The notes under the pieces are model-generated. The model saw nothing but the letters and a program-made list of their open reading frames with translations. It had not been told where the DNA came from and did not search any database. From Brachycybe producta (taxonomy: Eukaryota > Arthropoda > Diplopoda > Playtdesmida > Andrognathidae): a stretch of DNA of 64,000 nucleotides. Within the stretch, counting starts at the first letter, position 1, and every line of letters begins with the position of its first letter. A program made the position numbers and the translations under genes. Of this stretch, positions 33,086 to 62,319 are shown in pieces. The stretch lies in assembly GCA_036925085.1 (NCBI GenBank), contig JAUPFP010000032.1, positions 577,501 through 641,500 of the forward strand. Direction: 5' to 3'.

Positions 33086-33299
33086 ACAAAAAATGAATTT
33101 TTCTAAATAATATTTATGCTAATTAATCAAATTTATATTAATTATTTATACGATTTCAAGATGATTGTTTTTTTTTAATGTGATTTAAGGTAAGTATAAT
33201 TATGGCTGGTTCTAATATTATTCGAAATAAATAGGAATCATATTTGTTTAATTTAAGTTTCTTTCAAAATTGTCGGTAGGAATGAAAGAAGGAATATAG

Positions 33300-34045: not shown

Positions 34046-37000
34046 ATGATTGAATTATCACCAACAAAGTTGTCAGAAGAGAAAAATTCAAATAATCCGA
34101 TTTATTTTGGACGTAATTTATCAGAAAATGGTGAAAATGAACGTTTGAAAAGTGGAGGAAGTTCGGTTGAAAACAAACGAACGAAACGGAGGAGAAACAA
34201 GCAGAATTTAGGTAGAGTTTTCAGCGCAAGCGCACTAAGCGCGCGCGTCTGGGGGGGGGGCTCATAAAGTAGTCTACAAGGAGGCTGGATAAATATTTTG
34301 TTTTCGACGCTCCTTGCTCCCAGGTGGCGCTACTGTAGTGGCTGTTATGTTCTATGAGAGATTTATTTATTCTAACCACTGTTTAAAAAAAATTTATAAT
34401 TTTCAAGCGAACGTTTTTCAGGAGAAACATTACGAAAAAAATCAAAGTGTTTTAGAAACTAGAATAGTTGGCGATAATGCTAAAAGTTTTTTCGTGATGA
34501 TATCTTTCAAAATAAACTTTTTATGAGGGTCATACTAAAAGGCAGGACGGGCAGAAAAGGCAGAAAAGGCAGAATTTCATTATTTCTGGGCAGGTAGCGA
34601 TATTTTTGGGCAGGTAAGGGTAATCGAAGGTAGGTGGGGGTACTGCCTACTAATCTAGACCATTACCTGCCCGGAAAAGAAATTTCCGAAATTTTAAAAA
34701 AAATTTGAAATTTTTTGTAAAGGGCAGAATGGGCAGAATTTCATTATTTCCGGGCAGGTAGCGATATTTTTGGGCAGGTAAGGGTAAACGAGGGTAGGTG
34801 GGGGTACTCCCTACTAATCTAGACCATTACCTGCCCGGAAAAGAAATTTCCGAAATTTTAAAAAAAATTTGAAATTTTTTGTAAAGGGCAGAATGGGCAG
34901 AATTTCATTATTTCCGGGCAGGTAGCGATATTTTTGGGCAGGTAAGGGTAAACGAGGGTAGGTGGGGGTACTCCCTACTAATCTAGACCATTACCTGCCC
35001 GGAAAAAAAATTTCCGGAATTTTAAGAAATTTTTGAATTTTTTTGTATAGGGCAGAATGGGCAGAATTTCATTATTTCCGGGCAGGTAGCGATATTTTTG
35101 GGCAGGTAAGGGTAATCGAAGGTAGGTGGGGGTACTGCCTACTAATCTAGACCATTACCTGCCCGGAAAAGAAATTTCCGAAATTTTAAAAAAAATTTGA
35201 AATTTTTTGTAAAGGGCAGAATGGGCAGAATTTCATTATTTCCGGGCAGGTAAGGGTAAACGAGGGTAGGTGGGGGTACTCCCTACTAATCTAGACCATT
35301 ACCTGCCCGGAAAAAAAATTTCCGGAATTTTAAGAAATTTTTGAATTTTTTTGTATAGGGCAGAATGGGCAGAATTTCATTATTTCCGGGCAGGTAGCGA
35401 TATTTTTGGGCAGGTAAGGGTAATCGAGGGTAGGTGGGGGTACTGCCTACTAATCTAGACCATTACCTGCCCGGAAAAGAAATTTCCGAAATTTTAAAAA
35501 AAATTTGAAATTTTTTGTAAAGGGCAGAATGGGCAGAATTTCATTATTTCCGGGCAGGTAGCGATATTTTTGGGCAGGTAAGGGTAAACGAGGGTAGGTG
35601 GGGGTACTCCCTACTAATCTAGACCATTACCTGCCCGGAAAAGAAATTTCCGAAATTTTAAAAAAAATTTGAAATTTTTTGTAAAGGGCAGAATGGGCAG
35701 AATTTCATTATTTCCGGGCAGGTAGCGATATTTTTGGGCAGGTAAGGGTAAACGAGGGTAGGTGGGGGTACTCCCTACTAATCTAGACCATTACCTGCCC
35801 GGAAAAAAAATTTCCGGAATTTTAAGAAATTTTTGAATTTTTTTGTATTGGGCAGAATGGGCAGAATTTCATTATTTCCGGGCAGGTAGCGATATTTTTG
35901 GGCAGGTAAGGGTAAACGAGGGTAGGTGGGGGTACTCCCTACTAATCTAGACCATTACCTGCCCGGAAAAAAAATTTCCGGAATTTTAAGAAATTTTTGA
36001 AATTTTTTATATAGGGCAGAATGGGCAGAATTTCATTATTTCCGGGCAGGTAGCGATATTTTTGGGCATGTAAGGGTAATCGAGGGTAGGTGGGGGTACT
36101 CCCTACTAATCTAGACCATTACCTGCCCGGAAAAAAAATTTCCGGAATTTTAAGAAATTTTTGAATTTTTTTATATAGGGCAGAATGGGCAGAATTTCAT
36201 TATTTCCGGGCAGGTAGCGATATTTTTGGGCAGGTAAGGGTAAACGAGGGTAGGTGGGGGTACTCCCTACTAATCTAGACCATTACCTCCCCGGAAAAAA
36301 AATTTCCGGAATTTTAAGAAATTTTTGAATTTTTTTGTATAGGGCAGAATGGGCAGAATTTCATTATTTCCAGGCAGGTAGCGATATTTTTGGGCAGGTA
36401 AGGGTAATCGAGGGTAGGTGGGGGTACTGCCTACTAATCTAGACCATTACCTGCCCGGAAAAGAAATTTCCGAAATTTTAAAAAAAATTTGAAATTTTTT
36501 GTAAAGGGCAGAATGGGCAGAATTTCATTATTTCCGGGCAGGTAGCGATATTTTTGGGCAGGTAAGGGTAAACGAGGGTAGGTGGGGGTACTCCCTACTA
36601 ATCTAGACCATTACCTGCCCGGAAAAGAAATTTCCGAAATTTTAAAAAAAATTTGAAATTTTTTGTAAAGGGCAGAATGGGCAGAATTTCATTATTTCCG
36701 GGCAGGTAGCGATATTTTTGGGCAGGTAAGGGTAAACGAGGGTAGGTGGGGGTACTCCCTACTAATCTAGACCATTACCTGCCCGGAAAAAAAATTTCCG
36801 GAATTTTAAGAAATTTTTGAATTTTTTTGTATTGGGCAGAATGGGCAGAATTTCATTATTTCCGGGCAGGTAGCGATATTTTTGGGCAGGTAAGGGTAAA
36901 CGAGGGTAGGTGGGGGTACTCCCTACTAATCTAGACCATTACCTGCCCGGAAAAAAAATTTCCGGAATTTTAAGAAATTTTTGAAATTTTTTATATAGGG

Positions 37001-40000: not shown

Positions 40001-43000
40001 GGTAGGTGGGGGTACTGCCTACTAATCTAGACCATTACCTGCCCGGAAAAGAAATTTCCGAAATTTTAAAAAAAATTTGAAATTTTTTGTAAAGGGCAGA
40101 ATGGGCAGAATTTCATTATTTCTGGGCAGGTAGCGATATTTTTGGGCAGGTAAGGGTAATCGAGGGTAGGTGGGGGTACTGCCTACTAATCTAGACCATT
40201 ACCTGCCCGGAAAAAAAATTTCCGGAATTTTAAGAAATTTTTGAATTTTTTTATATAGGGCAGAATGGGCAGAATTTCATTATTTCCGGGCAGGTAGCGA
40301 TATTTTTGGGCAAGTAAGGGTAAACGAGGGTAGGTGGGGGTACTCCCTACTAATCTAGACCATTACCTGCCCGGAAAAAAAATTTCCGGAATTTTAAGAA
40401 ATTTTTGAATTTTTTTGTATTGGGCAGAATGGGCAGAATTTCATTATTTCTGGGCAGGTAGCGATATTTTTGGGCAGGTAAGGGTAATCGAGGGTAGGTG
40501 GGGGTACTGCCTACTAATCTAGACCATTACCTGCCCGGAAAAAAAATTTCCGGAATTTTAAGAAATTTTTGAATTTTTTTATATAGGGCAGAATGGGCAG
40601 AATTTCATTATTTCCGGGCAGGTAGCGATATTTTTGGGCAGGTAAGGGTAAACGAGGGTAGGTGGGGGTACTCCCTACTAATCTAGACCATTACCTGCCC
40701 GGAAAAAAAATTTCCGGAATTTTAAGAAATTTTTGAATTTTTTTGTATTGGGTAGAATGGGCAGAATTTCATTATTTCTGGGCAGGTAGCGATATTTTTG
40801 AGCAGGTAAGGGTAATTGAGGGTAGGTAGGGGTACTTCCTACTAATCTAGACCATTACCTGCCCGGAAAAGAAATTTCCGGAATTTTAAGAAATTTTTGA
40901 ATTTTTTTGTATTGGGCAGAATGGGCAGAATTTCATTATTTCTGGGCAGGTCACAATATTTTTGGGCAGGTGAGGGTAATCGAGGGTAGGTGGGGATACT
41001 CCCTAGAATTTAATATATATATAGGGGACTGGCTAGATACAGAACTAGACACACACCTTTGATACTCTCAATCCACTGCGTCTCGCTGTCTTTTGAAATG
41101 AAGTATCATATTGAAATATAACTTCTATGTGTGTGGCTTCTATGTATACAGCACAGGAGCCAATCAACCGAAAGACAATCAACACTCAATCGACACTTTC
41201 AAATGGCTACCAGAGATCTGTGTGGGCCACGCGGAAAAGGGAATGTTACAATGTTCACCATTTTGTAATATTCCCGTTTCCACGTGGCCCAAAGAGAGAT
41301 CTCTGGTAGCCATTCGAAAGTGTTGATTGAATGATGTACACGTCTTTCTGTCTATTGGCTGTCTGTTGTATACTTGCACTCTGGGGACACAAGGGTCGGT
41401 ACCTCAGGAGTCAAGATGTAGAAAAAAGCGTTGTTGAATCGGCTTACACTTGACTGCTGGAGATTTCTCTTCTATCGGTTCAAAAGATACTTTATTCAAA
41501 AGACAGCGACACACTGTGAATTGAAAGTATCAGAGATGTGTCACTATCTATGGTTGTAATCAGTCTGACTCTCAATCCACACGGTCCTGTTTATATATGT
41601 TTAACAACAATAGAAACATATGATCGATACAACAAAGGTGCCAGATGTGTCCAATATCCTTGGACACAACCAGGACCTTCAATTAATTATATTAATTACA
41701 AAACGAAAACATCTATAAGATGTAATAAAATATAACAATTAAATCCAATTAACTATTCAGACGAAAAGGACTTCTTCATCCTTTTTGTCACACCTGATGG
41801 GAGTTTCACTGGCTAAAAGTTCTGCATCGTCAATTCTTCTAGGAATCATCCTATAAGAATTGACGATACAATTCTTTTACCATCTTTTACTCATCCTGGA
41901 GGGTAGAGAGGTATCGACTGGATATCTCCCAACCACCCCCAAGCATGAGGTGAAACCCATCTCTATAATATCTAAACTACAGGGTGATTCTAAATGTAAA
42001 CGATTGAATTCGTCACACCCCCAACTAGGTTAGAAGCACGTCCCTGTGCTTCCAAAAAGTAAAACCCGTTTAAACAATACCCGTTGGTATGAAAATGCTA
42101 AACATGCAATAAATTAAATCCCGTTTGGATAAAAAATTATTTAAAAGTAATATAACCCGTTATTTTAACAATTGAAAATAGCAATCTGCTATTAAGAAAT
42201 TCCTACTCGGAATAAAAAACGAAAATTAAAACCAATTGGAGAGATTTAAAATTTGGAAAAGAGGCGAGAACCTATGGAACTCGAAATAAGGAACAAATCC
42301 CCTAAAAATCAAATAAAACGTATAAAACGCGGCAACGGCTTAGAAATACATATAAAATGAATAATCTAAAGTAGACAATGATCTATGTAAATGATGCAAA
42401 AACGTGCATAAAAAGGACAGGTATAAAATACAAAAATTTGAAACGAGTGCGAAAACCACAAAAGTATACGTAAAAATACTCAAAACAAACAGTCCATGTC
42501 TTGCAGGCCTAGTAATCTGCACTGGCCCATACGATGACGGGACTCTCGGGACTGCTGGACAGTTTTTTGTCCAGATGGATGGCGGCTTTGGTCGATCCTT
42601 TGTAGTGGTGGTAGCTTTTTCGCCCTTCTGCATAGCTCATTGCAGCATCAAAAAGCAGGTGTTGCCGGTCATCATGAAAGTGAGGTGCCCGGACTGGGCG
42701 GCCTACGATGTACTTCTTTGTCTTCGGACTCCATCAAAGAAAGGAGCGAATCCATTGCTGAATCCTTTCATCGGTATTTTCTAACTTGAATTCGTCTTCG
42801 TAGAAGAAGACCATGACATCTCGCGACTCCTGGTTGACGATGAGGATGGATGACACACTGTGTACTACCAATGCAATGAGGAGGGACTTCGGCCCTCTCG
42901 GCACTCTGTTTCTCGGCGGGGTCTCGTCCCATTCAAATAGACCGAGGTAGAGTTGGTGGCGTGGTGTCCTTTTACGTTGCCAATGAACAGAGATTGTTCA

Positions 43001-46000
43001 AGATCGTTTCGTTGCTTCTTGTACATCAATGAGGATGGGTGATGGGTTTACCATCAGGGACCTCCAAGGAGACCGTGGGAGTCCCCGATGGCAACCCCAG
43101 ACGTTCTTTGACCAGCCTTTTCTTTTTGATGGCACCCGTTTCCTTGGCTAGTCCCTCTTCAACTGCTATCTTTGTTGTGACCTCGTTCTTCAAGACTTTG
43201 ATCTCCGATGGTACAGGAGACAGTTCCGAAGCCCCAGGACTCCCAGGAGTTTCGGAATCTTTCCTGGCTGTAGTCTCTGGTGCTACAATCTTTTGGTTAT
43301 CTTCGTAGACGAGTCCCTGGTCCCTTGGGCAGATGTCTCTTAAGGTGACGCTGTCCCCTGGCACTTTATGGAAAAAGCGTCGTACTTCGGACCTTAACTG
43401 GGTTCTCACACCTCTGTTGGGCCGGTTTCGCTCGACGAGAGGCCTTGGCTGCCTCCAGCGCCGAACTCCGCGGACCAACAGGTCTTCTGTGAGGTCCGAT
43501 CTTCCAGTGTCCTTGGGAGTATGAATCCTGTCCAGATGACTCGAAAACATTATCAATCAGGGCCAGCCCCTGAAAATAGTATGCAACAGCCAAATCGATT
43601 AGTTGCTTAAGCTGCCCATTATACCGATCTCTGGGATCTTCGGTTTCTTGGCTGGTTTCATTCGCAACAGTTTTCAACATCGTGAATTTCTTCGTCATCA
43701 TCGGAACCTCCTCTTCCATGAGATTGATCTCCCAGCATCAATATACAAGACGTTTTTGTTCTCTGGGTTAGGTTCCAGGTCTCCGGTGATGGTGATGATG
43801 GGTCTCTTGTTAACATTATCTAAAATGCTTCGTTGGGTGAGGTGGGCCACAGTGGAGTCCGTGAGCCCTTTCTCACATTTGCCCTGGGCCTCTAGATGGC
43901 ATTTGCTTGGTTTATTATGCTTCTTTGGCAGGATTTCAGTTGGTGCTGTCGCAGCTGTTAAAAGGCTGGAGAGCGGCAGTGGTCGTTTCAAAGTGGGTAC
44001 CGCGATCTTGACTTTGGCGGCTGCTGGCTCGACGAGCTCGATGTAAGCCCTCTCTGCATCCTTCAAGGCTTGGCTTTTTGGTACATAATTGCCTTCTTTG
44101 GTCCAGATGTCATCGATGGTACGGTGAGGAACGGGTGGATGATTTCTTCGGTTTTGTTCTCAATCTGCATTTCTGGAGTCCAATTTTCAGTGGCATCAGC
44201 GGCTTCACCCTTCCCTCAGTTTCGGGGCTCCAACCCTCTGGGAGCGAACTTTCCAGGTTTGATTGCCTTATAGAAGTTAGGTTGGCCAGCGCCAACGAAC
44301 CCCTTCAAAATCTTCTTGGACTGGCGCTTCGTGGACCTCTTTGATGGCTTGGGGATAATCTTATACTCCCACAGGCCTTGCGCTATTTTGTTTTCCAGGG
44401 CCACTGCCTGCTGCAGTCTCAAACACCATCTTTGATCCGCCTGGTATCGGCACAATAGAGCAGGGCTCAGTTCTCGCTCTCTTGAACCCTCTCTCTTAGT
44501 GACCATGACCTGACAAGGCGGGTCCACGGACACCATGACCCCCACCCTACCTGGTAGTGGCCACATACCAGTTCTTTCCCATATCAGAAGACGCCATTAC
44601 AACTTTAAAAATAGAAAAAGGGTTAAGATTTCGGAGACCAAAATATTGCTTCTTATTTCGTCCCCTTTTTACCTCTTTTCGTTCAAATCTTTTGGAGATG
44701 TTAAGTCCAATCCTTTCCTTTTGATGAGATCTTCTTTTTCCTCTGCTTTTAGGCACAGTTATATCAAAACTTTCGATGCTTTTCGCAATAAACTTGGCAA
44801 AACTTCCAGAATTTTCAGCGATGAAAACAGTTCTCTCAAAATATGGCTGATAACGGTAAAAACTGTTTTGATACCACAAAGATGCCAAAAAATAGTGCCG
44901 ATACATGTGCACAACACATGGGCAAAGTTGTCAGTGATGAAGAACATAAAACAATAGGACCCGGTTCCAGAGTGGTGCGAGGCTAGTGGTCATTTCACTA
45001 ATTGTATTCCTCCGCCCACGTGTTTCTCTCATGAGCATTAGCATCACTGACCGCTCCCTGTTTACTTCCTCATTTGGGAAGTCATTTCCTTCTGTGGCAT
45101 CACTAGCATCGATGTTATCGTCTATTTTTGTTGTTTCATCGATAATTTGCACGTCTTTTAGCTCAATTTGAAATTGCTTCATGGATTTTGCGTCTTTTCC
45201 ATCAATTTTCATTGTTTCTTCCAGAATTTCACCGATTTCTTCAATAAATCCAATGGTTTCAATGGTGTAATTCGGCTTGTCACCGTATTCTCTGGTGAAT
45301 TTCATTGCATCTTCGCCAGGAAAGTATGAGAATTGCTGCTGGTTATTGTCTGCTGCCATTTTTCTTCTAATTTCAACGTTACGGTCGGAATGCTTTTGGA
45401 TTTCTTTCTTGAATATTTCAATTTCTTCTTCATCCTCAGATGATTCAATCCAAGCATTTTGGCATATGCAGTGTCCACAACATTTCTTCTTATGGGAAGG
45501 TGAGTTTTTCTTCTTGACAAATGCTGTCATATTTTTTTCTTTTTCAGGTTCCGATTCGGATTCTTCGATGAACGAGTTACCTATGGACTCCAGGGTGTCT
45601 CGGGTTTACAACATTCACAGAGTCTTCCACTAATCTTCCAGCTCGATTTTCCTATGATAATCGGTATAGTGTCCAATACCTTTGCGACAATTGTATATCC
45701 CTGTCTCCATTTTGTTAAGAACTTCTTGTTCTGGCCAGGCCTGATTCACATGTCTTGTACAAGTACTTTCTGACCAATTTAATACTCATAAGGTTTCTTG
45801 TGCTTTTGGCCGTAGTATTTCTTTCGGTGATCATGTGCTGCTTTCAGGTTTGCTGTAGCTGCTCTTAGTTCTTCTTGGCATTCCTCCACCTGTTGTTGAA
45901 CGTCCACGAGGTTTCCTGCCTTGTTATCCACGATTGTTAGTCGTTCTGGAACTAAGGTGTCAACTTTGGTTCTAGGCTCCCGTCCAAACATGAGTATGCG

Positions 46001-49000: not shown

Positions 49001-52000
49001 ATAGTGTAACCAGTTCCATTATCTGCCAAAATCTCACAGGTGTGCCATCAACCCGAATGGTGATCTTGGCAACACTCTCATCGGGCTTAGTATCACCTAC
49101 CTCGATGAGTTCACATGAGGTGAGGATGTTGTCCACGGCGGTTTCAACACACTTTCGACAACATGCTCTGCTCCTCAACAAATCACTTACTCCGACAGAT
49201 TCAATCATCTTGCTGGTATCATCTCTCGTACTTATAGCTGCATTTACGATAGTGTTCTTAGATTCCATGGCACTACATTTAGCCTTACTCATTGGCAGTT
49301 ACATCTTGAGCAGTCTCACGAGTTACGTTGCTTACCCTCGGTAGATACACGGCAGAATTCTGTTGGGCCTTTCCCCTCAATTCTGTCTTGATGAACTCCA
49401 GTTTCCATGGCTCATACAATTCTTTGTGCTTCCGCCAAACTATTCGCGTAAATTGACATAGCTTTTGTAGTCGACCAGATGATGGGATTTGGAAACATCT
49501 TAATAGTTTCTCCCATTCGACCAGTCTCCTTCTTCAGCTTCTTCGCGGATGATCTTTTTGAATTTTGATGTCGTTTTCATTTGTAATGGCGACTATCAAC
49601 TCCGACATCTGCTCAAGGAGTCCTTGAGAGTCCAAATCACATGGTCTCTTTGGTGCTCCTGCAGTTGGTCCAGTTATAGAATCATTAGTTACTTTAGACA
49701 CGACCATATCACCCCGAACAAAGATTCATTCACGCTGTTTCGAGAATGGCCGATCCCTGTTTCATTGCAATTTTGTTGTTTTCCAGAGGGTTTTCCATCT
49801 TGAAAGGGCGGTAGGCCTCTCTTTACTGCCACCCTTTTTAGTTTAAATCAGCTGGGCTCTCTTCTCAAAAATACATCTTCTGCCCATTCTCGCTGACAAC
49901 AAAATATCTTTGACCATTTTTCCCAGTGGTCATTCCATTATGAACTATTCCGACGGTTCCATCCGCTCCTTTCTTCGGGCAGTTGTATGCCAAATGTCCT
50001 TTCTCATAACAGTAAAAACATTCAACTGTGCTGAGATCTCTCAAAGGTTTGTTCCTTTGCGTATTCTGGCCATTGAAGTTCTTCTTTTGTTGCAGATATC
50101 TTTGGTTCCGGTACTGACTCTGTTGCTGATTTGAATTCTGAATGGTTTTTGGTTGCTGTTGGTCATTAAGAGTTGATGAAGTCGGATTGTCTGGTGGGTT
50201 TGCTTGATTCTGAGCAATGACAGCATATGTGTGGCCTCCGTCCATTGCGGATTGTGTCGTTTTCGCATTTTGATGTTGACTTGTTTTCTGGGATGTTTGG
50301 GAGACCTGAGCCATTAGTTGTGGACCCGTGGTTCTCTCGATTACCCATAATCCCTGCAACATCAAGACTTCTTCAGTATCCTTCACATATGTCGTGTACA
50401 ATTTAAGATCTGCACCTGGTGCAGATTGTACAGCATTGCGTATGGTAGGATGAAGCTTATTCCGAAGTTCTACAATTCGGTACTTGTCCATCACTCCAGG
50501 TAACACCTTCTTGCTCAGATCGATGTAGCGACTCAGAAACTGACTGGAGTCCTCTTCTTTCCTTTGGAGCATGGTGTCCAGCTTCAGCTTTAGTCGGATC
50601 AATTCATCTCATCGTCCAAATTGATCAATCAACTCTCCGGATGAAGTCCCACATCATCTTCCCTCTATTCTCCTTATAGAGGTTGGAGAGCCAACACTAT
50701 GTACCCTTCTACTGCTTTCCTCAAGAAGTAGGTTTTATAGACGTTACTAGTCTTCGAGATCTGCGATCTCTTCATAGTCTTCCAGAAAGGTATAGACAGA
50801 TGTAGTCCCCTTGAATGTCCACATCAGAGTGGATGTAAGCTACGATACTTTCTATCCAACTCCTCACAGGTCCGATGATTCATGATTGGATTCGATCCAA
50901 TTCTTCCACGATGAGGTCACTGATCAAACTTTCATCCTCCAGCTAGTCCGGGTCTTCTCTCGGTAGTATAGGAGTCTCGGGGAGGTGGCCCTTCTGGATT
51001 CCTCCACTCTTCTTTACTATGCATGGCGTTTGAAACACATGAGTCGATCTTGGCTATTCAGCGTGGGCCGATGAGGGCTCCACTTCGGTGTTCAATTCTT
51101 GAATTACCGTATGATGCTGAATTGTGCTTACCTCACGCCCGCTCCGGAGTTGCATCAATCCTGATGGTTGTTGGGCTTCATACCATATCATTTTGCCTCG
51201 GCGTCTTGGACTTCGACTTGGGTCTGCCTTTCTTCCCTTTTTCCCTGGTGTAGCTCCGCCATCTGTTATTTTCTACTTGATCTTTGGCGAGGTACCCCGC
51301 ACCTCCACTGTTTTGTAACAATCGCATTACCGCGTTCCCCACAGAGAGATCTCTGGTAGCTATTTGACAGTGTCAATTGAATGTTGATGAGTAAGTCTTT
51401 CGGTCGATTGGCTCCTGTGTTGTATACTTAACCACCAGGGACACAAGGGTCGGTACCTCAGGAGTCTAGAGGTAGAAAATAGTGTTGTTGTGTCGTCTTA
51501 CACGTGGCTGCTGAAGACTTCCTTTTCTATCGGTCCAATCATTGGCTGAGTGGCGGTTGTAACATAAAGTCCCACTCCCACACATAGAAGTTATATTTCA
51601 ATACTAGTGGGGTTACCCGTCATAAATGATGTGAGCCAAATTCACAGGCAATTGTGTCCTGTCTTAGAATTTCTTTTCCTCCGCCCTTTTATGATGTCAG
51701 ACCAAGTAACAAACCAATTAGAAATTGATGACGTTCATAAAACAGCTGAGCAAAAGAAATTCTAATGCTGGGCACAATTACCTGTGATAAATTCTAGTTT
51801 CATTTTGCTACGATTATCTACTATAAAAAGGGGAGGGCCCTTTTTATATTTGAAAGAGAAAATGAGCTTTTCATTTTCTCTGGTGTGCTCATGCGCGTCA
51901 TTTGTTCCTTTTTTTACTCCTTTCATTTCAATTTCAGCCACCCCCTCCCACTTTTTTTCAACCATCCACATTTCTCTCCCCCTTCTACACTTTCCAATTT

Positions 52001-55000
52001 TTTCCCGTCTCCAATTTAATATCATGGGGTTCTTGGATGGGGAGGGTGCAACATATAGTTGACCTTGAGAAAAAAAAAGCTGTTCATTTCTTTATTTATT
52101 TAAATTTATATAAATTCCGATGTGCTTCAAGGGTTTTGTACAGTGTTACTCCACACACACACACACACACATACATACACAGACCTGGCTTAATATATAT
52201 ATAATGATTCTTTTTTTTTTCTAATTAGACAGTGACACGCCCAGGTATAATGAAATTCTGCCCATTCTTCAATATACAAAAAATTTCAAAATTTTTTTAA
52301 AATTCCGGAAATTTTTTTTCCGGGATGGTAATGGTTGATTTTAGTAGGGAGTACCCCACCTACCCTCGAATAACCTTACCTGCCCAAAAATATCGCGACC
52401 TGCCCAGATATAATGAAATTCTGCCCATTCTGCCCTATACAAAAAAATTCAAAAATTTCTTAAAATTCCGGAAATTTTTTTTCCGGGCAGGTAATGGTCT
52501 AAATTAGTAGGGAGTACCCCCACCTACCCTCGATTACCCTTACCTGCCCAAAAATATCGCTACCTGCCCAGAAATAATGAAATTCTGCCCATTCTGCCTT
52601 ATACAAAAAAATTCAAAAATTTCTTAAAATTCCGGAAATTTTTTTTCCGGGCAGGTAATGGTCTAGATTAGTAGGCAGTACCCCCACCTACCCTCGATTA
52701 CCCTTACCTGCCCAGAAATAATGAAATTCTGCCCATTCTGCCCTTTACAAAAAAATTCAAATTTTTTTTAAAATTTCGGAAATTTCTTTTCCGGGCAGGT
52801 AATGGTCTAGATTAGTAGGCAGTACCCTTACCTGCCCAAAAATATCGCTACCTGCCCAGAAATAATGAAATTCTGCCCATTCTGCCCAATACAAAAAAAA
52901 TTCAAAAATTTCTTAAAATTCCGGAAATTTTTTTTCCGGGCAGGTAATGGTCTAGATTAGTAGGGAGTACCCCCACCTACCCTCGTTTACCCTTACCTGA
53001 CCAAAAATATCGCTACCTGCCCGGAAATAATGAAATTCTGCCCATTCTGCCCTATACAAAAAAATTCAAAAATTTGTTAAAATTCCGGAAATTTTTTTTC
53101 CGGGCAGGTAATGGTCTATATTAGTAGGGAGTACCCCCACCTACCCTCGTTTACCCTTACCTGCCCAAGAATATCGCTACCTGCCCGGAAATAATGAAAT
53201 TCTGCCCATTCTGCCCTATATAAAGAAATTCAAAAATTTCTTAAAATTCCGGAAATTTTTTTTCCGGGCAGGTAATGGTCTAGATTAGTAGGGAGTACCC
53301 CCACCTACCCTCGATTACTCTTACCTGCCCAATAATATCGCTACCTGCCCAGAAATAATGAAATTCTGCCCATTCTGCCCTATATAAAGAAATTCAAAAA
53401 TTTGTTAAAATTCCGGAAATTTTTTTTCCGGGCAGGTAATGGTCTATATTAGTAGGGAGTACCCCCACCTACCCTCGTTTACCCTTACCTGCCCAAAAAT
53501 ATCGCTACCTGCCCGGAAATAATGAAATTCTGCCCATTCTGCCCTATACAAAAAAATTCAAAAATTTCTTAAAATTCCGGAAATTTTTTTTCCGGGCAGG
53601 TAATGGTCTAGATTAGTAGGGAGTACCCCCACCTACCCTCGTTTACCCTTACCTGCCCAAAAATATCGCTACCTGCCCAGAAATAATGAAATTCTGCCCA
53701 TTCTGCCCAATACAAAAAAATTCAAAAATTTCTTAAAATTCCGGAATTTTTTTTTCCGGGCAGGTAATGGTCTAGATTAGTAGGGAGTACCCCCACCTAC
53801 CCTCGATTACCCTTACCTGCCCAAAAATATCGCTACCTGCCCAGAAATAATGAAATTCTGCCCATTCTGCCCAATACAAAAAAATTCAAAAATTTCTTAA
53901 AATTCCGGAATTTTTTTTTCCGGGCAGGTAATGGTCTAGATTAGTAGGGAGTACCCCCACCTACCCTCGATTACCCTTACCTGCCCAAAAATATCGCTAC
54001 CTGCCCGGAAATAATGAAATTCTGCCCATTCTGCCCTTTACAAAAAATTTCAAATTTTTTTTAAAATTTCGGAAATTTCTTTTCCGGGCAGGTAATGGTC
54101 TAGATTAGTAGGCAGTACCCCCACCTACCCTCGATTACCCTTACCTGCCCAAAAATATCGCTACCTGCCCAGAAATAATGAAATTCTGCCCATTCTGCCC
54201 AATACAAAAAAATTCAAAAATTTCTTAAAATTCCGGAATTTTTTTTTCCGGGCAGGTAATGGTCTAGATTAGTAGGGAGTACCCCCACCTACCCTCGATT
54301 ACCCTTACCTGCCCAAAAATATCGCTACCTGCCCGGAAATAATGAAATTCTGCCCATTCTGCCCTATACAAAAAAATTCAAAAATTTCTTAAAATTCCGG
54401 AAATTTTTTTTCCGGGCAGGTAATGGTCTAGATTAGTAGGGAGTACCCCCACCTACCCTCGTTTACCCTTACCTGCCCAAAAATATCGCTACCTGCCCGG
54501 AAATAATGAAATTCTGCCCATTCTGCCCTTTACAAAAAATTTCAAATTTTTTTTAAAATTTCGGAAATTTCTTTTCCGGGCAGGTAATGGTCTAGATTAG
54601 TAGGCAGTACCCTTACCTGCCCAAAAATATCGCTACCTGCCCAGAAATAATGAAATTCTGCCCATTCTGCCCAATACAAAAAAATTCAAAAATTTCTTAA
54701 AATTCCGGAATTTTTTTTTCCGGGCAGGTAATGGTCTAGATTAGTAGGGAGTACCCCCACCTACCCTCGATTACCCTTACCTGCCCAAAAATATCGCTAC
54801 CTGCCCGGAAATAATGAAATTCTGCCCATTCTGCCCTATACAAAAAAATTCAAAAATTTCTTAAAATTCCGGAAATTTTTTTTCCGGGCAGGTAATGGTC
54901 TAGATTAGTAGGCAGTACCCCCACCTACCCTCGATTACCCTTACCTGCCCAAAAATATCGCTACCTGCCCAGAAATAATGAAATTCTGCCCATTCTGCCC

Positions 55001-58000
55001 AATACAAAAAAAATTCAAAAATTTCTTAAAATTCCGGAAATTTTTTTTCCGGGCAGGTAATGGTCTAGATTAGTAGGCAGTATCCCCACCTACCCTCGAT
55101 TACCCTTACCTGCCCAAAAATATCGCTACCTGCCCGGAAATAATGAAATTCTGCCCATTCTGCCCTATACAAAAAAATTCAAAAATTTCTTAAAATTCCG
55201 GAAATTTTTTTTCCGGGCAGGTAATGGTCTAGATTAGTAGGGAGTACCCCCACCTACCCTCGTTTACCCTTACCTGCCCAAAAATATCGCTACCTGCCCG
55301 GAAATAATGAAATTCTGCCCATTCTGCCCTTTACAAAAAATTTCAAATTTTTTTTAAAATTTCGGAAATTTCTTTTCCGGGCAGGTAATGGTCTAGATTA
55401 GTAGGCAGTACCCCCACCTACCCTCGATTACCCTTACCTGCCCAAAAATATCGCTACCTGCCCAGAAATAATGAAATTCTGCCCATTCTGCCCAATACAA
55501 AAAAATTCAAAAATTTCTTAAAATTCCGGAATTTTTTTTTCCGGGCAGGTAATGGTCTAGATTAGTAGGGAGTACCCCCACCTACCCTCGATTACCCTTA
55601 CCTGCCCAAAAATATCGCTACCTGCCCGGAAATAATGAAATTCTGCCCATTCTGCCCTATACAAAAAAATTCAAAAATTTCTTAAAATTCCGGAAATTTT
55701 TTTTCCGGGCAGGTAATGGTCTAGATTAGTAGGGAGTACCCCCACCTACCCTCGTTTACCCTTACCTGCCCAAAAATATCGCTACCTGCCCGGAAATAAT
55801 GAAATTCTGCCCATTCTGCCCTTTACAAAAAATTTCAAATTTTTTTTAAAATTTCGGAAATTTCTTTTCCGGGCAGGTAATGGTCTAGATTAGTAGGCAG
55901 TACCCTTACCTGCCCAAAAATATCGCTACCTGCCCAGAAATAATGAAATTCTGCCCATTCTGCCCAATACAAAAAAATTCAAAAATTTCTTAAAATTCCG
56001 GAATTTTTTTTTCCGGGCAGGTAATGGTCTAGATTAGTAGGGAGTACCCCCACCTACCCTCGATTACCCTTACCTGCCCAAAAATATCGCTACCTGCCCG
56101 GAAATAATGAAATTCTGCCCATTCTGCCCTATACAAAAAAATTCAAAAATTTCTTAAAATTCCGGAAATTTTTTTTCCGGGCAGGTAATGGTCTAGATTA
56201 GTAGGCAGTACCCCCACCTACCCTCGATTACTCTTACCTGCCCAAAAATATCGCTACCTGCCCAGAAATAATGAAATTCTGCCCATTCTGCCCAATACAA
56301 AAAAAATTCAAAAATTTCTTAAAATTCCGGAAATTTTTTTTCCGGGCAGGTAATGGTCTAGATTAGTAGGCAGTATCCCCACCTACCCTCGATTACCCTT
56401 ACCTGCCCAAAAATATCGCTACCTGCCCGGAAATAATGAAATTCTGCCCATTCTGCCCTATACAAAAAAATTCAAAAATTTCTTAAAATTCCGGAAATTT
56501 TTTTTCCGGGCAGGTAATGGTCTAGATTAGTAGGGAGTACCCCCACCTACCCTCGTTTACCCTTACCTGCCCAAAAATATCGCTACCTGCCCGGAAATAA
56601 TGAAATTCTGCCCATTCTGCCCTTTACAAAAAAATTCAAATTTTTTTTAAAATTTCGGAAATTTCTTTTCCGGGCAGGTAATGGTCTAGATTAGTAGGGA
56701 GTACCCCACCTACCCTCGATTACCCTTACCTGCCCAAAAATATCGCTACCTGCCCAGAAATAATGAAATTCTGCCCATTCTGCCCTTTACAAAAAATTTC
56801 AAATTTTTTTTAAAATTTCGGAAATTTCTTTTCCGGGCAGGTAATGGTCTATATTAGTAGGGAGTACCCCCACCTACCCTCGTTTACCCTTACCTGACCA
56901 AAAATATCGCTACCTGCCCGGAAATAATGAAATTCTGCCCATTCTGCCCTATACAAAAAAATTCAAAAATTTGTTAAAATTCCGGAAATTTTTTTTCCGG
57001 GCAGGTAATGGTCTATATTAGTAGGGAGTACCCCCACCTACCCTCGTTTACCCTTACCTGCCCAAGAATATCGCTACCTGCCCGGAAATAATGAAATTCT
57101 GCCCATTCTGCCCTATATAAAGAAATTCAAAAATTTCTTAAAATTCCGGAAATTTTTTTTCCGGGCAGGTAATGGTCTAGATTAGTAGGGAGTACCCCCA
57201 CCTACCCTCGATTACTCTTACCTGCCCAATAATATCGCTACCTGCCCAGAAATAATGAAATTCTGCCCATTCTGCCCTATATAAAGAAATTCAAAAATTT
57301 GTTAAAATTCCGGAAATTTTTTTTCCGGGCAGGTAATGGTCTATATTAGTAGGGAGTACCCCCACCTACCCTCGTTTACCCTTACCTGCCCAAAAATATC
57401 GCTACCTGCCCGGAAATAATGAAATTCTGCCCATTCTGCCCTATACAAAAAAATTCAAAAATTTCTTAAAATTCCGGAAATTTTTTTTCCGGGCAGGTAA
57501 TGGTCTAGATTAGTAGGGAGTACCCCCACCTACCCTCGTTTACCCTTACCTGCCCAAAAATATCGCTACCTGCCCGGAAATAATGAAATTCTGCCCATTC
57601 TGCCCTTTACAAAAAATTTCAAATTTTTTTTAAAATTTCGGAAATTTCTTTTCCGGGCAGGTAATGGTCTAGATTAGTAGGCAGTACCCCCACCTACCCT
57701 CGATTACCCTTACCTGCCCAAAAATATCGCTACCTGCCCGGAAATAATGAAATTCTGCCCATTCTGCCCTATACAAAAAAATTCAAAAATTTCTTAAAAT
57801 TCCGGAAATTTTTTTTCCGGGCAGGTAATGGTCTAGATTAGTAGGGAGTACCCCCACCTACCCTCGTTTACCCTTACCTGCCCGGAAATAATGAAATTCT
57901 GCCCATTCTGCCCTTTACAAAAAATTTCAAATTTTTTTTAAAATTTCGGAAATTTCTTTTCCAGGCAGGTAATGGTCTAGATTAGTAGGCAGTACCCCCA

Positions 58001-61000
58001 CCTACCCTCGATTACCCTTACCTGCCCAAAAATATCGCTACCTGCCCGGAAATAATGAAATTCTGCCCATTCTGCCCTTTACAAAAAATTTCAAATTTTT
58101 TTTAAAATTTCGGAAATTTCTTTTCCGGGCAGGTAATGGTCTATATTAGTAGGGAGTACCCCCACCTACCCTCGTTTACCCTTACCTGCCCAAAAATATC
58201 GCTACCTGCCCGGAAATAATGAAATTCTGCCCATTCTGCCCTATACAAAAAAATTCAAAAATTTGTTAAAATTCCGGAAATTTTTTTTCCGGGCAGGTAA
58301 TGGTCTATATTAGTAGGGAGTACCCCCACCTACCCTCGTTTACCCTTACCTGCCCAAGAATATCGCTACCTGCCCGGAAATAATGAAATTCTGCCCATTC
58401 TGCCCTATATAAAGAAATTCAAAAATTTCTTAAAATTCCGGAAATTTTTTTTCCGGGCAGGTAATGGTCTAGATTAGTAGGGAGTACCCCCACCTACCCT
58501 CGATTACTCTTACCTGCCCAATAATATCGCTACCTGCCCAGAAATAATGAAATTCTGCCCATTCTGCCCTATATAAAGAAATTCAAAAATTTCTTAAAAT
58601 TCCGGAAATTTTTTTTCCGGGCAGGTAATGGTCTAGATTAGTAGGCAGTACCCCCACCTACCTTCGATTACCCTTACCTGCCCAATAATATCGCTACCTG
58701 CCCAGAAATAATGAAATTCTGCCCATTCTGCCCTATATAAAGAAATTCAAAAATTTCTTAAAATTCCGGAAATTTTTTTTCCGGGCAGGTAATGGTCTAG
58801 ATTAGTAGGCAGTACCCCCACCTACCCTCGATTACTCTTACCTGCCCAATAATATCGCTACCTGCCCAGAAATAATGAAATTCTGCCCATTCTGCCCTAT
58901 ATAAAGAAATTCAAAAATTTCTTAAAATTCCGGAAATTTTTTTTCCGGGCAGGTAATGGTCTAGATTAGTAGGCAGTACCCCCACCTACCCTCGATTACT
59001 CTTACCTGCCCAATAATATCGCTACCTGCCCAGAAATAATGAAATTCTGCCCATTCTGCCCTATATAAAGAAATTCAAAAATTTCTTAAAATTCCGGAAA
59101 TTTTTTTTCCGGGCAGGTAATGGTCTAGATTAGTAGGGAGTACCCCCACCTACCCTCGTTTACCCTTACCTGCCCGGAAATAATGAAATTCTGCCCATTC
59201 TGCCCTTTACAAAAAATTTCAAATTTTTTTTAAAATTTCGGAAATTTCTTTTCCAGGCAGGTAATGGTCTAGATTAGTAGGCAGTACCCCCACCTACCCT
59301 CGATTACCCTTACCTGCCCAAAAATATCGCTACCTGCCCGGAAATAATGAAATTCTGCCCATTCTGCCCTTTACAAAAAATTTCAAATTTTTTTTAAAAT
59401 TTCGGAAATTTCTTTTCCGGGCAGGTAATGGTCTATATTAGTAGGGAGTACCCCCACCTACCCTCGTTTACCCTTACCTGCCCAAAAATATCGCTACCTG
59501 CCCGGAAATAATGAAATTCTGCCCATTCTGCCCTATACAAAAAAATTCAAAAATTTGTTAAAATTCCGGAAATTTTTTTTCCGGGCAGGTAATGGTCTAT
59601 ATTAGTAGGGAGTACCCCCACCTACCCTCGTTTACCCTTACCTGCCCAAGAATATCGCTACCTGCCCGGAAATAATGAAATTCTGCCCATTCTGCCCTAT
59701 ATAAAGAAATTCAAAAATTTCTTAAAATTCCGGAAATTTTTTTTCCGGGCAGGTAATGGTCTAGATTAGTAGGGAGTACCCCCACCTACCCTCGATTACT
59801 CTTACCTGCCCAATAATATCGCTACCTGCCCAGAAATAATGAAATTCTGCCCATTCTGCCCTATATAAAGAAATTCAAAAATTTCTTAAAATTCCGGAAA
59901 TTTTTTTTCCGGGCAGGTAATGGTCTAGATTAGTAGGCAGTACCCCCACCTACCTTCGATTACCCTTACCTGCCCAATAATATCGCTACCTGCCCAGAAA
60001 TAATGAAATTCTGCCCATTCTGCCCTATATAAAGAAATTCAAAAATTTCTTAAAATTCCGGAAATTTTTTTTCCGGGCAGGTAATGGTCTAGATTAGTAG
60101 GCAGTACCCCCACCTACCCTCGATTACTCTTACCTGCCCAATAATATCGCTACCTGCCCAGAAATAATGAAATTCTGCCCATTCTGCCCTATATAAAGAA
60201 ATTCAAAAATTTCTTAAAATTCCGGAAATTTTTTTTCCGGGCAGGTAATGGTCTAGATTAGTAGGCAGTACCCCCACCTACCCTCGATTACTCTTACCTG
60301 CCCAATAATATCGCTACCTGCCCAGAAATAATGAAATTCTGCCCATTCTGCCCTATATAAAGAAATTCAAAAATTTCTTAAAATTCCGGAAATTTTTTTT
60401 CCGGGCAGGTAATGGTCTAGATTAGTAGGGAGTACCCCCACCTACCCTCGTTTACCCTTACCTGCCCGGAAATAATGAAATTCTGCCCATTCTGCCCTTT
60501 ACAAAAAATTTCAAATTTTTTTTAAAATTTCGGAAATTTCTTTTCCAGGCAGGTAATGGTCTAGATTAGTAGGCAGTACCCCCACCTACCCTCGATTACC
60601 CTTACCTGCCCAAAAATATCGCTACCTGCCCGGAAATAATGAAATTCTGCCCATTCTGCCCTTTACAAAAAATTTCAAATTTTTTTTAAAATTTCGGAAA
60701 TTTCTTTTCCGGGCAGGTAATGGTCTATATTAGTAGGGAGTACCCCCACCTACCCTCGTTTACCCTTACCTGCCCAAAAATATCGCTACCTGCCCGGAAA
60801 TAATGAAATTCTGCCCATTCTGCCCTATACAAAAAAATTCAAAAATTTGTTAAAATTCCGGAAATTTTTTTTCCGGGCAGGTAATGGTCTATATTAGTAG
60901 GGAGTACCCCCACCTACCCTCGTTTACCCTTACCTGCCCAAGAATATCGCTACCTGCCCAGAAATAATGAAATTCTGCCTTTTCTGCCTTTTCTGCCCGT

Positions 61001-62280
61001 CCTGCCTTTTAGTATGACCCTTTTTATGACAGTTTGAAAAATGGGCGAAAATAGTTTTTCATGAAATTTCAATGGAAAATCCCAAAAAAAAAAAAAAAAC
61101 GTTCCATTTTTCAAACTGAACTATAAATTGTTTATTTTGTAAGACGTTGTCATGAAAAAAACTTTTAGCATAATCTTTGACCATTCTAGTTTTGAAAACA
61201 ATTAGAATTTTTTGCTTCGTAATTTTGCTTCTTCAAAACCGTTCGCTTGACGTTTTTGCGTCCAAGTTTTGCAAAAAAATGTCTACAACTTAGCTACTAC
61301 AGTGGCGCCATCTGATGGGTGACGAAAGCAAAGTCAATGTATATTCAGCCACCTTGATCAAGTATACAATGACCTCAACTCCGCAATGACGGAGAAATTA
61401 TGAAAGACAAACACAGCAGCCATTGCCGCGACCGGGATTCGAACTCGGAATCCTCAGCGCCGAAAGAATACCCTTTCCCATAGATAATTTGCATCTTATA
61501 TGTTGCAGGAGCCGAAGATGACGATGTCCTTCCAGCAAAAGAAGTAACTCATTCAACCGACCAACGAAGCGAAATTAGCGCAAAATCTCGAGAAAGTGAA
61601 GAACAATCCGTAAGTTACGATGTCGTCGATGCCGACGAATCGCGACAACGAAAACAGCGTAAAAAGAAGAAATCTCGATCTTCGAGAAAAGTATCTTTTC
61701 GTAAATAATATTGACTGTTTTGATGAACTTATAAATTTTTCTATTTTTATTTTAAGTCTCGGGATGGAGAAGTGGAATTGTATCCGGGAGATTCGATCGA
61801 AGCCGATTTGTCGCATTTTTCAAATGATTTGGTCGTTGCGGAAGGTGAGACGTTTCCGTCCGAAAAACAACAAGTTTGGCATTCGAATGTTCAGAGTCAA
61901 CCTGTTGGAAAAGTCTTCATCGAACATAATGGTGATTATTATCTCGTATTTGAAACAAACCAATGTTAACACTAATCGATATCGGTCCGATATTTTTCAA
62001 ATATCGGACCGATATCGATTTTTCGAAAATATCGCTAGCCCTAAAGTATGGGGCACTTAATCACTATGTTGTTTTTTATGAACATTTAGATGGGTTTAAG
62101 GCGCTATCAAAATGGAAGTTCGTGGAGCGTTCCGTGAGTGAGGATCCGGAAAGTCGCAAGGCGGTTACGAGTGGAACGACTGCGATCGATGTCGGTCTGT
62201 CACTTCACTCTTACGCTACACGATTATCCAATTATTGTCACGGCATTTTAGCAGGATTTTCTCTTTGGCAGTGTGTTATG
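34046..62280 (+). CDS. TMEM237: TMEM237-like ciliary transition-zone membrane protein, exons 1-4 (3' end outside window)
   Basis: Exons seen: 34046-34211, 61509-61690, 61757-61931 and 62090-62280, in phases 1, 0, 1 and 0, giving 238 codons so far. Exon 1 (MIELSPTKLSEEKN...) ends in a basic KRTKRRRNKQN stretch. Exon 2 is acidic, then basic (RKQRKKKKSRSSRK). Exon 3 carries QSQPVGKVFIEH, matching the conserved SQPVGKVFVE of TMEM237. Exon 4 has IDVGLSLH and the start of the first membrane helix, NYCHGILAGFSLWQCVMV, against the family's SHGFLAGCAVWN. TMEM237 is a tetraspan protein of the ciliary transition zone, mutated in Joubert syndrome. The remaining three helices must lie beyond the last visible donor (GTATGT at 62281). 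Intron 1 is 27.3 kb because it contains a 26.5 kb foldback transposon. Exon 1 assignment rests on phase, position and composition; exons 2-4 are firmer. Confidence 0.8.
34278..34526. mobile_element. Family C element, left half, split by the giant foldback
   Basis: Left half of a family C copy from 'aaggaggctggataaatatt' to 'aaaataaactttttatga'. The right half resumes at 61021 after the 26.5 kb insertion. The rejoined order matches intact copies such as 32195-32769. Confidence 0.8.
34518..34526 (+). repeat. Left target-site duplication of the giant foldback element
   Basis: TTTTTATGA, repeated exactly at 61021-61029. The sequence occurs once at this point in intact family C copies, so the second copy was created by insertion. 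Confidence 0.93.
34561..41010 (+). repeat. Left arm: about 39 tandem copies of a 164-bp unit
   Basis: The period is exactly 164 bp between 'agggcagaatgggcagaatt' landmarks (34721, 34885, 35049, 35213). Each unit has 'ccgggcaggtagcgatattt', 'gggcaggtaagggtaa(a/t)cg', 'tactaatctagaccattacc' and 'tgcccgg'. Some units lack the 'gtagcgatatttttgggcag' segment. Marker variants 'gggcatg' (36067, 37051) and 'cctcc' (36287, 37271) recur at exactly 984 bp, six units, showing a higher-order duplication. The inner end degenerates before 41010. Confidence 0.95.
41030..41550. repeat. Palindromic left LTR of the gypsy element
   Basis: The segment is an inverted duplication centred near 41258. 'tggctaccagagatctgtgt' (41203) faces 'agatctctggtagccatt' (41296), and 'cgctgtcttttgaaatgaag' (41084) faces its complement near 41500. 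Only the right arm (about 41260-41490) is in the same orientation as the right LTR. It shares 'gggacacaagggtcggtacc' and 'tcaggagtc' with that LTR. It looks like two LTR copies joined head to head, or an LTR duplicated by inversion. Confidence 0.7.
42460..44912 (-). pseudogene. Broken ORF cluster of unknown identity between integrase and left LTR
   Basis: On the minus strand, coding-like pieces succeed one another in shifting frames: 44912-44547, 44566-44216, 44066-43698, 43719-43366, 43556-43026 and about 42975-42735. The region is distinctly G+C-richer than its flanks. Pieces include WYVATTR, ENKIAQGLWEYKIIPKPSKR, DLAVAYYFQGLALIDNVFES, VPGDSVTLRDICPRDQGLVY and SRDVMVFFYEDEFKL. They suggest one or two former proteins of several hundred residues with at least four frame breaks. 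I recognise no domain. The position matches an env-like or accessory gene of a gypsy element, but no clear signal peptide or fusion segment is visible. Confidence 0.5.
44931..45530 (-). CDS. Acidic 199-aa ORF downstream of integrase, unknown
   Basis: Open for 199 codons on the minus strand. It starts MTAFVKKKNSPSHKKKCC with a small cluster KKCCGHCICQNAW, followed by a strongly acidic, helix-prone body (ESSEDEEEIEIFKKEIQKH, IEEIGEILEETMKIDGK) and a basic RETRGRRN near the end. No family recognised. It follows the integrase remnants in the same direction, so it probably belongs to the retrotransposon. It may be a fragment of the integrase C-terminal region or an extra gene. Confidence 0.4.
   Translation of the reverse strand: MTAFVKKKNSPSHKKKCCGHCICQNAWIESSEDEEEIEIFKKEIQKHSDRNVEIRRKMAADNNQQQFSYFPGEDAMKFTREYGDKPNYTIETIGFIEEIGEILEETMKIDGKDAKSMKQFQIELKDVQIIDETTKIDDNIDASDATEGNDFPNEEVNRERSVMLMLMRETRGRRNTISEMTTSLAPLWNRVLLFYVLHH
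45779..46513 (-). pseudogene. Integrase of the gypsy element, frameshifted
   Basis: Three minus-strand pieces (46513-46202, 46205-45972, 46054-45779) make up the integrase core in successive frames. The first has the catalytic aspartates in WGIDFIGPL and SDKGMPF. The second has YHPQSNGLTERTNKS with the catalytic glutamate. The third covers the post-core helix (REPRTKVDTLVPERL). Frameshifts fall near 46203 and 46030. The zinc-binding HHCC domain is fused to the RT/RNase H frame upstream. Nonfunctional as it stands. Confidence 0.88.
46477..48060 (-). pseudogene. Reverse transcriptase / RNase H (gypsy), defective
   Basis: A 468-codon frame (47883-46477) plus an upstream stretch to about 48060. 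The fingers/palm motif TLDVKSGYWQFEM is clear. The catalytic box reads YLDN instead of YxDD (codon at 47655-47653), so a metal-binding aspartate is missing. An in-frame TGA (47907-47905) separates the RT start from the rest. RNase H shows HTDACGYGIG and TDHHAL, with an apparent deletion of roughly 20 residues before YKEGKLHIKADCLSRY. The end of the frame has the integrase HHCC zinc finger (HDEPDAGHEG ... CEICQ). A dead copy. Confidence 0.92.
48249..49292 (-). pseudogene. Protease-region polyprotein segment (gypsy), frame disrupted
   Basis: 347-codon minus-strand frame between gag and RT. KITIRVDGTPVRF is the usual strand before a retropepsin active site, and LLGNDLG is typical of its C-terminal part. 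The active-site segment itself is read only in another frame around 49010, where the triad would be D-N-G rather than D-S/T-G. The disruption and the unusual triad both suggest inactivation. The remainder is a linker into RT. Confidence 0.6.
49865..50602 (-). CDS. Gag with one CCHC zinc knuckle (gypsy)
   Basis: 245-codon minus-strand frame. The N-terminal half, with LQRKEEDSSQFLSRYIDL and a conserved helical region, resembles the retrotransposon gag capsid domain. A Q/N-rich linker follows, then one CX2CX4HX4C knuckle (CFYCYEKGHLAYNC) near the C-terminus. The frame starts at the first Met, but homologous sequence probably extends upstream past 50602, where stops occur, so the N-terminus is likely lost. 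Confidence 0.82.
   Translation of the reverse strand: MIRLKLKLDTMLQRKEEDSSQFLSRYIDLSKKVLPGVMDKYRIVELRNKLHPTIRNAVQSAPGADLKLYTTYVKDTEEVLMLQGLWVIERTTGPQLMAQVSQTSQKTSQHQNAKTTQSAMDGGHTYAVIAQNQANPPDNPTSSTLNDQQQPKTIQNSNQQQSQYRNQRYLQQKKNFNGQNTQRNKPLRDLSTVECFYCYEKGHLAYNCPKKGADGTVGIVHNGMTTGKNGQRYFVVSENGQKMYF
51268..51600 (-). repeat. Right (5') LTR of the gypsy element
   Basis: Shares 'agagagatctctggtagc', 'gggacacaagggtcggtacc' and 'tcaggagtc' with the left LTR, same orientation. On the minus strand it ends '...aaaataaca', two bases before the primer-binding site, the same layout as the unrelated-looking LTR element at 20902-23792. Its outer end abuts repeat family H at 51603. Confidence 0.72.
51603..52212 (+). 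repeat. Interspersed repeat family H, copy 2, inside the giant foldback
   Basis: Plus-orientation counterpart of 3575-4086, from 'ctagtggggttacccgtcat' to (CA)n, 'cagacctggcttaatatata'. It contains the family's hairpin at 51644-51785. It sits between the gypsy LTR and the right tandem arm. Confidence 0.62.
51644..51785. repeat. Hairpin related to MITE B within family H copy 2
   Basis: ACAGGCAATTGTGTCCTGTC at the left and '...gctgggcacaattacctgt' at the right, the same element as 3897-4039. Internal 'cctccgcccttttatgatgt'. Confidence 0.6.
52235..60960 (-). repeat. Right arm: about 53 tandem copies of the 164-bp unit, inverted
   Basis: Reverse-complement orientation of the left arm ('attctgcccattctgcccta', 'ccgggcaggtaatggtctag'). 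Higher-order structure is visible. The private variant 'ttccaggcagg' recurs at about 57961, 59253 and 60545, exactly 1292 bp apart. 'cctgaccaaaaa' recurs at 52997 and 56893, about 3.9 kb apart. The arm is about 2.3 kb longer than the left one. No coding frame. Confidence 0.95.
61021..61356. mobile_element. Family C element, right half, split by the giant foldback
   Basis: Starts with the right target duplication TTTTTATGA (61021-61029) and continues 'cagtttgaaaaatgggcgaa' to the terminus 'cagtggcgccatctgatggg' and 'tattcagccacctt'. It completes the copy begun at 34278. Confidence 0.82.
61425..61475 (-). repeat. tRNA-derived fragment with a B-box
   Basis: On the minus strand the sequence contains GAGTTCGAATCCCGGTCGCG, a good RNA polymerase III B-box and T-loop. 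There is no matching A-box or acceptor stem at the right spacing, so this is a SINE-like remnant and not a tRNA gene. It lies just before TMEM237 exon 2. Confidence 0.45.
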
Positions 62281-62319
62281 GTATGTCTCGTATCGTTATG
62301 GGGCTGGCACAATTTTCGA

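Follow-up and report, generated by a model that had tools for sequence, protein, structure and literature searches.

The Mutator/MULE superfamily is where many foldback elements are classified. Tetris and DAIBAM, from the Drosophila virilis group, are described as having tandem repeats (TIR-220) in their terminal inverted repeats (TIRs), with a varying number of units (PMC4079207). The same account gives 8-10 bp target-site duplications for Tetris, reports no transposase, and places the element in Mutator by inference; its arrays of up to 66 copies are read as a satellite born inside Tetris, with large arrays, in the authors' view, perhaps disrupting transposition (PMC4079207). The Tm1 Mutator/Foldback family of root-knot nematodes is summarised as having variable composite repeated TIRs, mostly 9-bp duplications, and both MITE-like and longer members (PMC3169594). 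For MULEs the stated duplication length is 8-11 bp, and Rehavkus is given 9 bp, TIRs of 26-400 bp and a minisatellite near the 3' TIR (PMC6446971). The first three bases of MULEs are reported as G/C-rich, and the longest complete MULE in a survey of 4,268 arthropod genomes, which counted transposase-bearing elements only, is 10.0 kb, with 1,193 bp for the longest TIR (PMC13359780). In Galileo the longest TIRs are about 1.26 kb, the extra length coming partly from recruited inner sequence (PMC3573991). Larger loads are also on record: in the Ising's TE of Drosophila segments of hundreds of kb, lying between foldback elements, were moved (PMC6431247), and Pack-TIR copies such as Ssk-FB4 are presented as foreign DNA taken up and amplified by foldbacks (PMC8277862). 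Our literature search, made on titles and abstract openings, returned no foldback with several-kb arms around a retrotransposon; subscription papers were outside its scope, and absence from print is not claimed.

Here we describe a locus from the genome of Brachycybe producta which is very probably a non-autonomous foldback DNA transposon, with arms that are arrays of a subterminal 164-bp unit and with a dead Ty3/Gypsy retrotransposon as passenger.

Architecture of the element

The stretch of DNA analysed (the window) comprises 64,000 nucleotides of contig JAUPFP010000032.1. Its positions 34527-61020 form a 26.5-kb foldback element, the ends of which are exactly complementary over 78 bp and are bordered on both sides by an exact 9-bp target-site duplication. 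The arms measure 6.5 kb (left) and 8.8 kb (right) and hold their units in opposite orientation; the inverted match between them shows 94.7% identity across 6.47 kb. A block of 8 units is exactly repeated in the outer part of the right arm.

34518-34526, no strand: target-site duplication, left copy, TTTTTATGA
34527-34604, plus strand: left terminal inverted repeat, exact part, 78 bp, starting GGGTCATACTAAAAGGCAGGACGGGCAG
34527-41005, plus strand: left arm with 39 units, two being 144 bp long and the others 164 bp, and one partial inner unit
52239-61020, minus strand: right arm with 54 units, seven being 144 bp long and most 164 bp, and one partial inner unit
60943-61020, minus strand: right terminal inverted repeat, exact part, 78 bp
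61021-61029, no strand: target-site duplication, right copy, TTTTTATGA

The first-pass annotation of this DNA had proposed a foldback with satellite-like inverted arms, and the exact 78-bp TIR, the exact duplication and the inverted arrays of the 164-bp unit bear it out. Its picture of giant satellite-like arms was correct but incomplete, as the core makes up about 42% of the length and consists for the most part of a dead, captured Ty3/Gypsy retrotransposon, which had been missed.

Just to the right of the element lies a TMEM237-like coding sequence (ORF 61954-62397; PF15383, E 4.8e-9); the ORF preceding it matches PF15383 below the cut-off (E 0.019). Outside the foldback, at window positions 30964-33480, there are also tandem arrays around TTTGCCC/GGGCAA units.

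The retrotransposon core

The core is of the Ty3/Gypsy type, with reverse transcriptase, RNase H and integrase domains and with LTRs. This placement is based on the domains and the named relatives, without a tree. The pol ORF has 395 protein relatives, and the 120 listed are 31-45% identical, many of them spider (Trichonephila) retroelements named after Gypsy-type transposons.

41006-52238, minus strand: core, 11,233 bp, mostly dead Ty3/Gypsy-type LTR retrotransposon
41149-41250, plus strand: inverted LTR-end copy close to the left arm
41264-42011, minus strand: 3' LTR, two matched stretches
45972-46516, minus strand: integrase core remnant, two ORFs (PF00665 above the cut-off, PF13683 below)
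46477-47904, minus strand: pol remnant with reverse transcriptase, RNase H and integrase zinc-binding domain
49865-50608, minus strand: gag-like ORF, its CCHC zinc knuckle matching PF00098 below the Pfam cut-off (E 0.0022)
51343-51580, minus strand: 5' LTR remnant, the matched stretch being LTR positions 587-820
51603-52212, no strand: dispersed repeat with approximate limits, flanked by the 5' LTR remnant and the right arm

DNA similar to the dispersed repeat is found at window positions 3600-4083, and also beside a free relative of the retrotransposon on contig C6 (L051-L053, C6:3714100-3728000). The free copy is near 11.5 kb long, its LTRs (about 850 bp) are 100% identical, its flanks share 4 bp, and its coding frames comprise 564 and then 2,567 codons, the second being very long. 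In comparison with it, the window core has a 5' LTR without the first two thirds, a 3' LTR, and the inverted LTR-end piece near the left arm. A further 25 pol matches show about the same identity to the query as the C6 copy.

In the genome search with pol, in which 40 of 718 candidates were scored, 14 matches have 90-100% identity and all of them lie between paired foldback termini; besides the window element, 13 other pairs of ends thus enclose the same pol. The remaining 26 scored matches are 84-86% identical. When the 3' region served as query, 40 of 227 candidates were scored; those 14 elements came back at 94-100%, the others at 71-87%. One 86% pol match, at C19:2108680, has a single terminus at a distance of 4.4 kb and perhaps represents an older family member, and a single terminus on C81 holds the 5' part of the core. 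The cores of the eight long copies fetched (the window copy and seven others) are homologous over most of their length, with large deletions in C2a, C19a and C19b.

Such constant association raises the question of which partner moves the other. A TIR-bounded retrotransposon of a new kind, moved by its own gag-pol and integrase using the long inverted arms, would agree with the presence of gag-pol-derived sequence between the arms in all eight long copies fetched (and in six more, by match position) and with the inverted LTR pieces found at both arm/core junctions in six of the eight (absent in C2a and C19a). Stops and frame changes, however, break the coding frames in all five cores tested, while the C6 free copy has its two long frames, which makes it unlikely that the core spread by its own machinery. 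Moreover, the LTRs of the C6 copy, the only free relative examined, are normal, and its flanks have 4 bp in common instead of 9. The family termini, with an exact 9-bp duplication, also bound a coreless copy of 1.5 kb (C17a). We therefore consider self-propelled movement of this kind highly improbable. In the passenger reading, a single entry of the retrotransposon into an ancestral foldback would have been followed by its carriage ever since. Foreign DNA between TIRs, moved as a unit, is the arrangement known from Pack-TIR and Pack-MULE elements, with the distinction that the cargo here is a transposon, not a host gene fragment.

A family of copies at unrelated sites

The 295.3-Mb assembly (442 contigs) was searched as a whole with the terminus of the element. 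The 28-bp terminus, at up to 3 mismatches, gave 42 forward and 48 reverse matches (90 in all; reversed control 0 and 0), and the 19-bp terminus, at up to 2 mismatches, gave 52 and 58 (reversed control 1 and 1). The family ends are GGGTCATACTAAAAGG-like, with GGG at the ends. Exact 9-bp duplications are present in 12 of the 19 candidate pairs (C2a, C2b, C12a, C17a, C18, C19a, C19b, C32, C20b, C37, C51 and C78, where C32 is the window copy) and missing from seven (C11, C12b, C17b, C80, C20a, C41 and C12c). The first-pass annotation had staked its reading on the ends recurring elsewhere with target duplications, and they do; what it took for a single giant foldback is indeed an element, but one member of a family in which C37 is larger, at 27.3 kb.

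Of the 14 retrotransposon-bearing pairs, all with the family ends, 11 have an exact 9-bp duplication, so that the foldback would have taken its captured retrotransposon to at least 11 sites. The three exceptions are C20a (9 bp after 3 extra bases), C17b (8 of 9, in a poly-A stretch) and C41 (none); in C12b, 7 of 9 positions agree. Copies with an exact duplication are from 1.5 to 27.3 kb in size, and pairs without one go down to 0.2 kb. The coreless foldback C17a, of 1,521 bp, is 97.6% identical to its own reverse complement. The pair C12:3765382-3788952 (C12c), with no duplication and no pol match, was rejected as probably two unrelated ends, although it is still included in the count of 19.

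Spread by segmental duplication, or of an array by recombination, without transposition, would account for C41 and several short copies that have no duplications, and the repeated unit blocks do indicate recombination within arms. The 12 exact duplications, however, are all different (none of the 132 mutual pairings agree), which refutes this explanation for those 12. The flanks are likewise unrelated save for dispersed repeats: in seventeen flanks of 1.5 kb each, from nine copies, only dispersed repeats of up to 693 bp are in common, out of register with the element ends. As a general account of the family, we judge such spread extremely improbable. An assembly artefact, in which two satellite arrays were joined around a retrotransposon, is to be considered for the reason that long identical arrays are hard to assemble, and one unit array (C166, more than 6 kb) reaches a point about 0.5 kb from where its contig stops. 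Against this stand the same architecture at 14 loci, 11 of them with exact duplications, and the nearly identical unit order in both arms of C2a and C19a at unrelated sites; an artefact is thus barely credible. With long TIRs of tandem subrepeats and target-site duplications at dispersed insertions, the family has the properties of the foldback type.

The 164-bp unit was also used as a query. With 40 of 173 candidates scored, the listed matches (part of 437) all fall in paired foldbacks or in C166. Termini with the common flank ATACATTAG were treated as one end inside another repeat family and left unpaired. Another dispersed repeat, with the left flank ...GATCAGCAGTCAAATACATTAG and the right flank ...TACTACCTGCCAACAGTGAAAAAG in many copies, holds one foldback end and a variable number of 164-bp units, and is a second vehicle for the unit (termini L001, L006-L011, L019, L029, L073, L076-L078, L084, L091, L093 and L094). 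In a sister foldback family (L079, L087 and L088) the outer GGGTCATACTAAAAGGC is in common and GGCGTG/GGCATG replaces GGCAGG; L088 is a short palindromic copy with a self-inverted match of about 340 bp. An exon-like ORF, which we take to be CTR9-like, lies near a foldback end whose arm is very short (L074, C42:885852-893851). The flank of another C42 end, at 903753, is identical to that of the L074 end.

Arms and cores change at different rates

Some cores are nearly identical. C32 and C2b differ at 17 of 11,233 positions, C32 and C18 at 19 of 11,201, C2b and C18 at 20 of 11,201, and C2a and C19a at 18 of 8,842; all remaining core pairs differ by 1.3-8.0%. A young group was defined as the six copies with pol at 100% (C32, C2b, C78, C37, C20b and C51) together with C18, placed by its core. 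Its members measure 18.8-27.3 kb in all, with 5' arms of 3.65-8.8 kb and 3' arms of 2.4-8.6 kb; in four of the seven cases the lengths were computed from match coordinates and an assumed constant core. Since near-identical young cores are accompanied by widely differing arm lengths, the size of the arms evolves far more rapidly than the core accumulates mutations. An exception is the pair C2a and C19a, in which the short arms on both sides have kept nearly the same order of units. These two 13.5-kb copies (C2:413755-427255 and C19:1502183-1515717), with cores 0.2% apart at unrelated sites, form a clean pair for the study of arm stability.

Arm lengths differ between copies by whole unit blocks. 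Duplication or loss of such blocks would make the arms longer or shorter at a pace above that of core mutation, and units, like the arm/LTR junction, may be copied onto the opposite side when the two arms pair. The window element has four unit types that are the same in its two arms, C2b two, C18 three, C12a one and C2a none; such types could have been inherited instead of copied across. Units of one element (mean identity about 0.95) resemble each other no more than do units of different young elements, evidence against strong homogenisation within individual elements, with the exception of the 3' arm of C12a (0.981).

The arms may have grown after insertion, and the duplications do not, for this reason, prove that all 18-27 kb were transposed. 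Movement of an entire unit is best supported by C2a and C19a, which agree almost completely in the unit order of both arms despite their unrelated sites; from this pair we infer a moving unit of at least 13.5 kb. In the young group, the shortest member of which is 18.8 kb, the moving unit was probably about 19 kb or more; both lengths are indirect, because arms may have changed in place.

The retrotransposon may also have been the spacer that enabled the giant form. Arms held 8-12 kb apart would keep the inverted repeat safe from hairpin-driven deletion, the arms, built of transposase-binding units, could reach satellite length with the element still mobile, and the foldback would seed satellite DNA. 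Among the 16 paired copies measured, arms of at least 1.9 kb occur only in core-bearing copies (10 of 12), and the four coreless copies have arms of at most 1.4 kb; this confinement of long arms favours the spacer role. It is weakened by C17b and C19b, in which a core is present with arms below 1 kb, by the small numbers, and by single-ended copies such as C166, which are unclassable. On balance we hold the spacer role to be doubtful, and put it forward tentatively.

The 164-bp unit and the source of the transposase

A G-rich subterminal motif recurs 4-5 times in every unit. GGGCAG/CTGCCC occurs 4.55 times per unit, compared to 0.019 after one mononucleotide shuffle of each (212 units of 155-170 bp, with within-arm duplicates dropped and shorter or longer units left out). 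As the units are related, this density is a sign of conservation within the family and not of function. When folded, the unit consensus forms a stem of 15 bp. The motif-rich units would fit the idea, put forward for Galileo and Tetris in the account of the latter, that tandem arm units add transposase-binding sites (PMC4079207), and the arms here may be arrays of such sites.

Of the 39 core ORFs of at least 80 codons, 20 were run against Pfam; no transposase domain was found in these 20, in which the only domains above the cut-off are reverse transcriptase, RNase H and integrase. No transposase was recognised by eye among ORFs of at least 90-100 codons at the single termini on C42 and C20, nor likewise at the sister-family termini on C1 and C3, a screen that short exons would escape. 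Movement of the family would be by cut-and-paste, with a transposase supplied in trans, most likely a MULE-like one. The Mutator/MULE superfamily is indicated by the 9-bp duplication together with the GGG ends.

A transposase outside the MULE superfamily would be in line with the lack of one in the ORFs inspected, and the foldback shape is described from different superfamilies, Galileo being P-like (PMC3573991, PMC3169594). The duplication length speaks against it, as the 9 bp of this family fall within the 8-11 bp given for MULEs and equal the 9 bp of Rehavkus (PMC6446971), whereas Galileo copies are described as bounded by 7-bp sequences (PMC3573991). We regard a non-MULE source as unlikely.

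Comparison with known systems

In general, the structural type is an already known one (foldback), present here in an extreme form, with giant arms and a captured retrotransposon. These DNA transposons form a family that includes copies 19-27 kb long, of which the largest are more than half satellite-like, and with cores differing by as little as 0.15% between sites. It makes testable, in one genome, the survival and growth of long inverted repeats in vivo and the seeding of satellite arrays by foldbacks. A class II element here keeps and amplifies a dead class I element, and repeat annotation could score its copies as retrotransposons.

The exceptional size claimed in the first-pass annotation holds in relation to the maxima of the arthropod MULE survey, but not in relation to all foldback-moved DNA, as the much larger segments described for Ising's TE demonstrate. 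Similarly to Ising's TE and Ssk-FB4, as these are described, unrelated DNA came to lie between foldback termini and was later amplified; unlike in them, what is carried is a dead LTR retrotransposon, present in 14 copies, and the arms extend over many kb (PMC6431247, PMC8277862). The inner sequence reportedly recruited into Galileo TIRs has a parallel in the LTR pieces at both arm/core junctions (PMC3573991).

With Rehavkus and other MULEs, as far as their descriptions go, the family has in common the 9-bp duplication and the G/C-rich ends (PMC6446971, PMC13359780). It differs from Rehavkus (TIRs of 26-400 bp) and from the surveyed arthropod MULEs (up to 1,193 bp) in its arms of many kb, and in that no transposase was found in the ORFs inspected. 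Variable-length composite repeated TIRs, 9-bp duplications and the occurrence of both short and long members are common to Tm1 and the present foldbacks; in the Tm1 description the motif is about 14 bp and one member encodes a MULE transposase, while none was seen here (PMC3169594).

Tetris, in its published account, has the same foldback plan, tandem-unit TIRs, a varying unit number and no transposase seen (PMC4079207). By that description the present family is set apart from it by a unit of 164 bp instead of 220 bp, and by the retrotransposon core, none being mentioned for Tetris in the parts of the account available to us (PMC4079207). In contrast to Tetris as described, the arms here reach 54 units in copies with exact duplications, though growth after insertion is possible (PMC4079207). 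Long arms in such copies fit continued mobility and do not prove it, because arms may grow in place.
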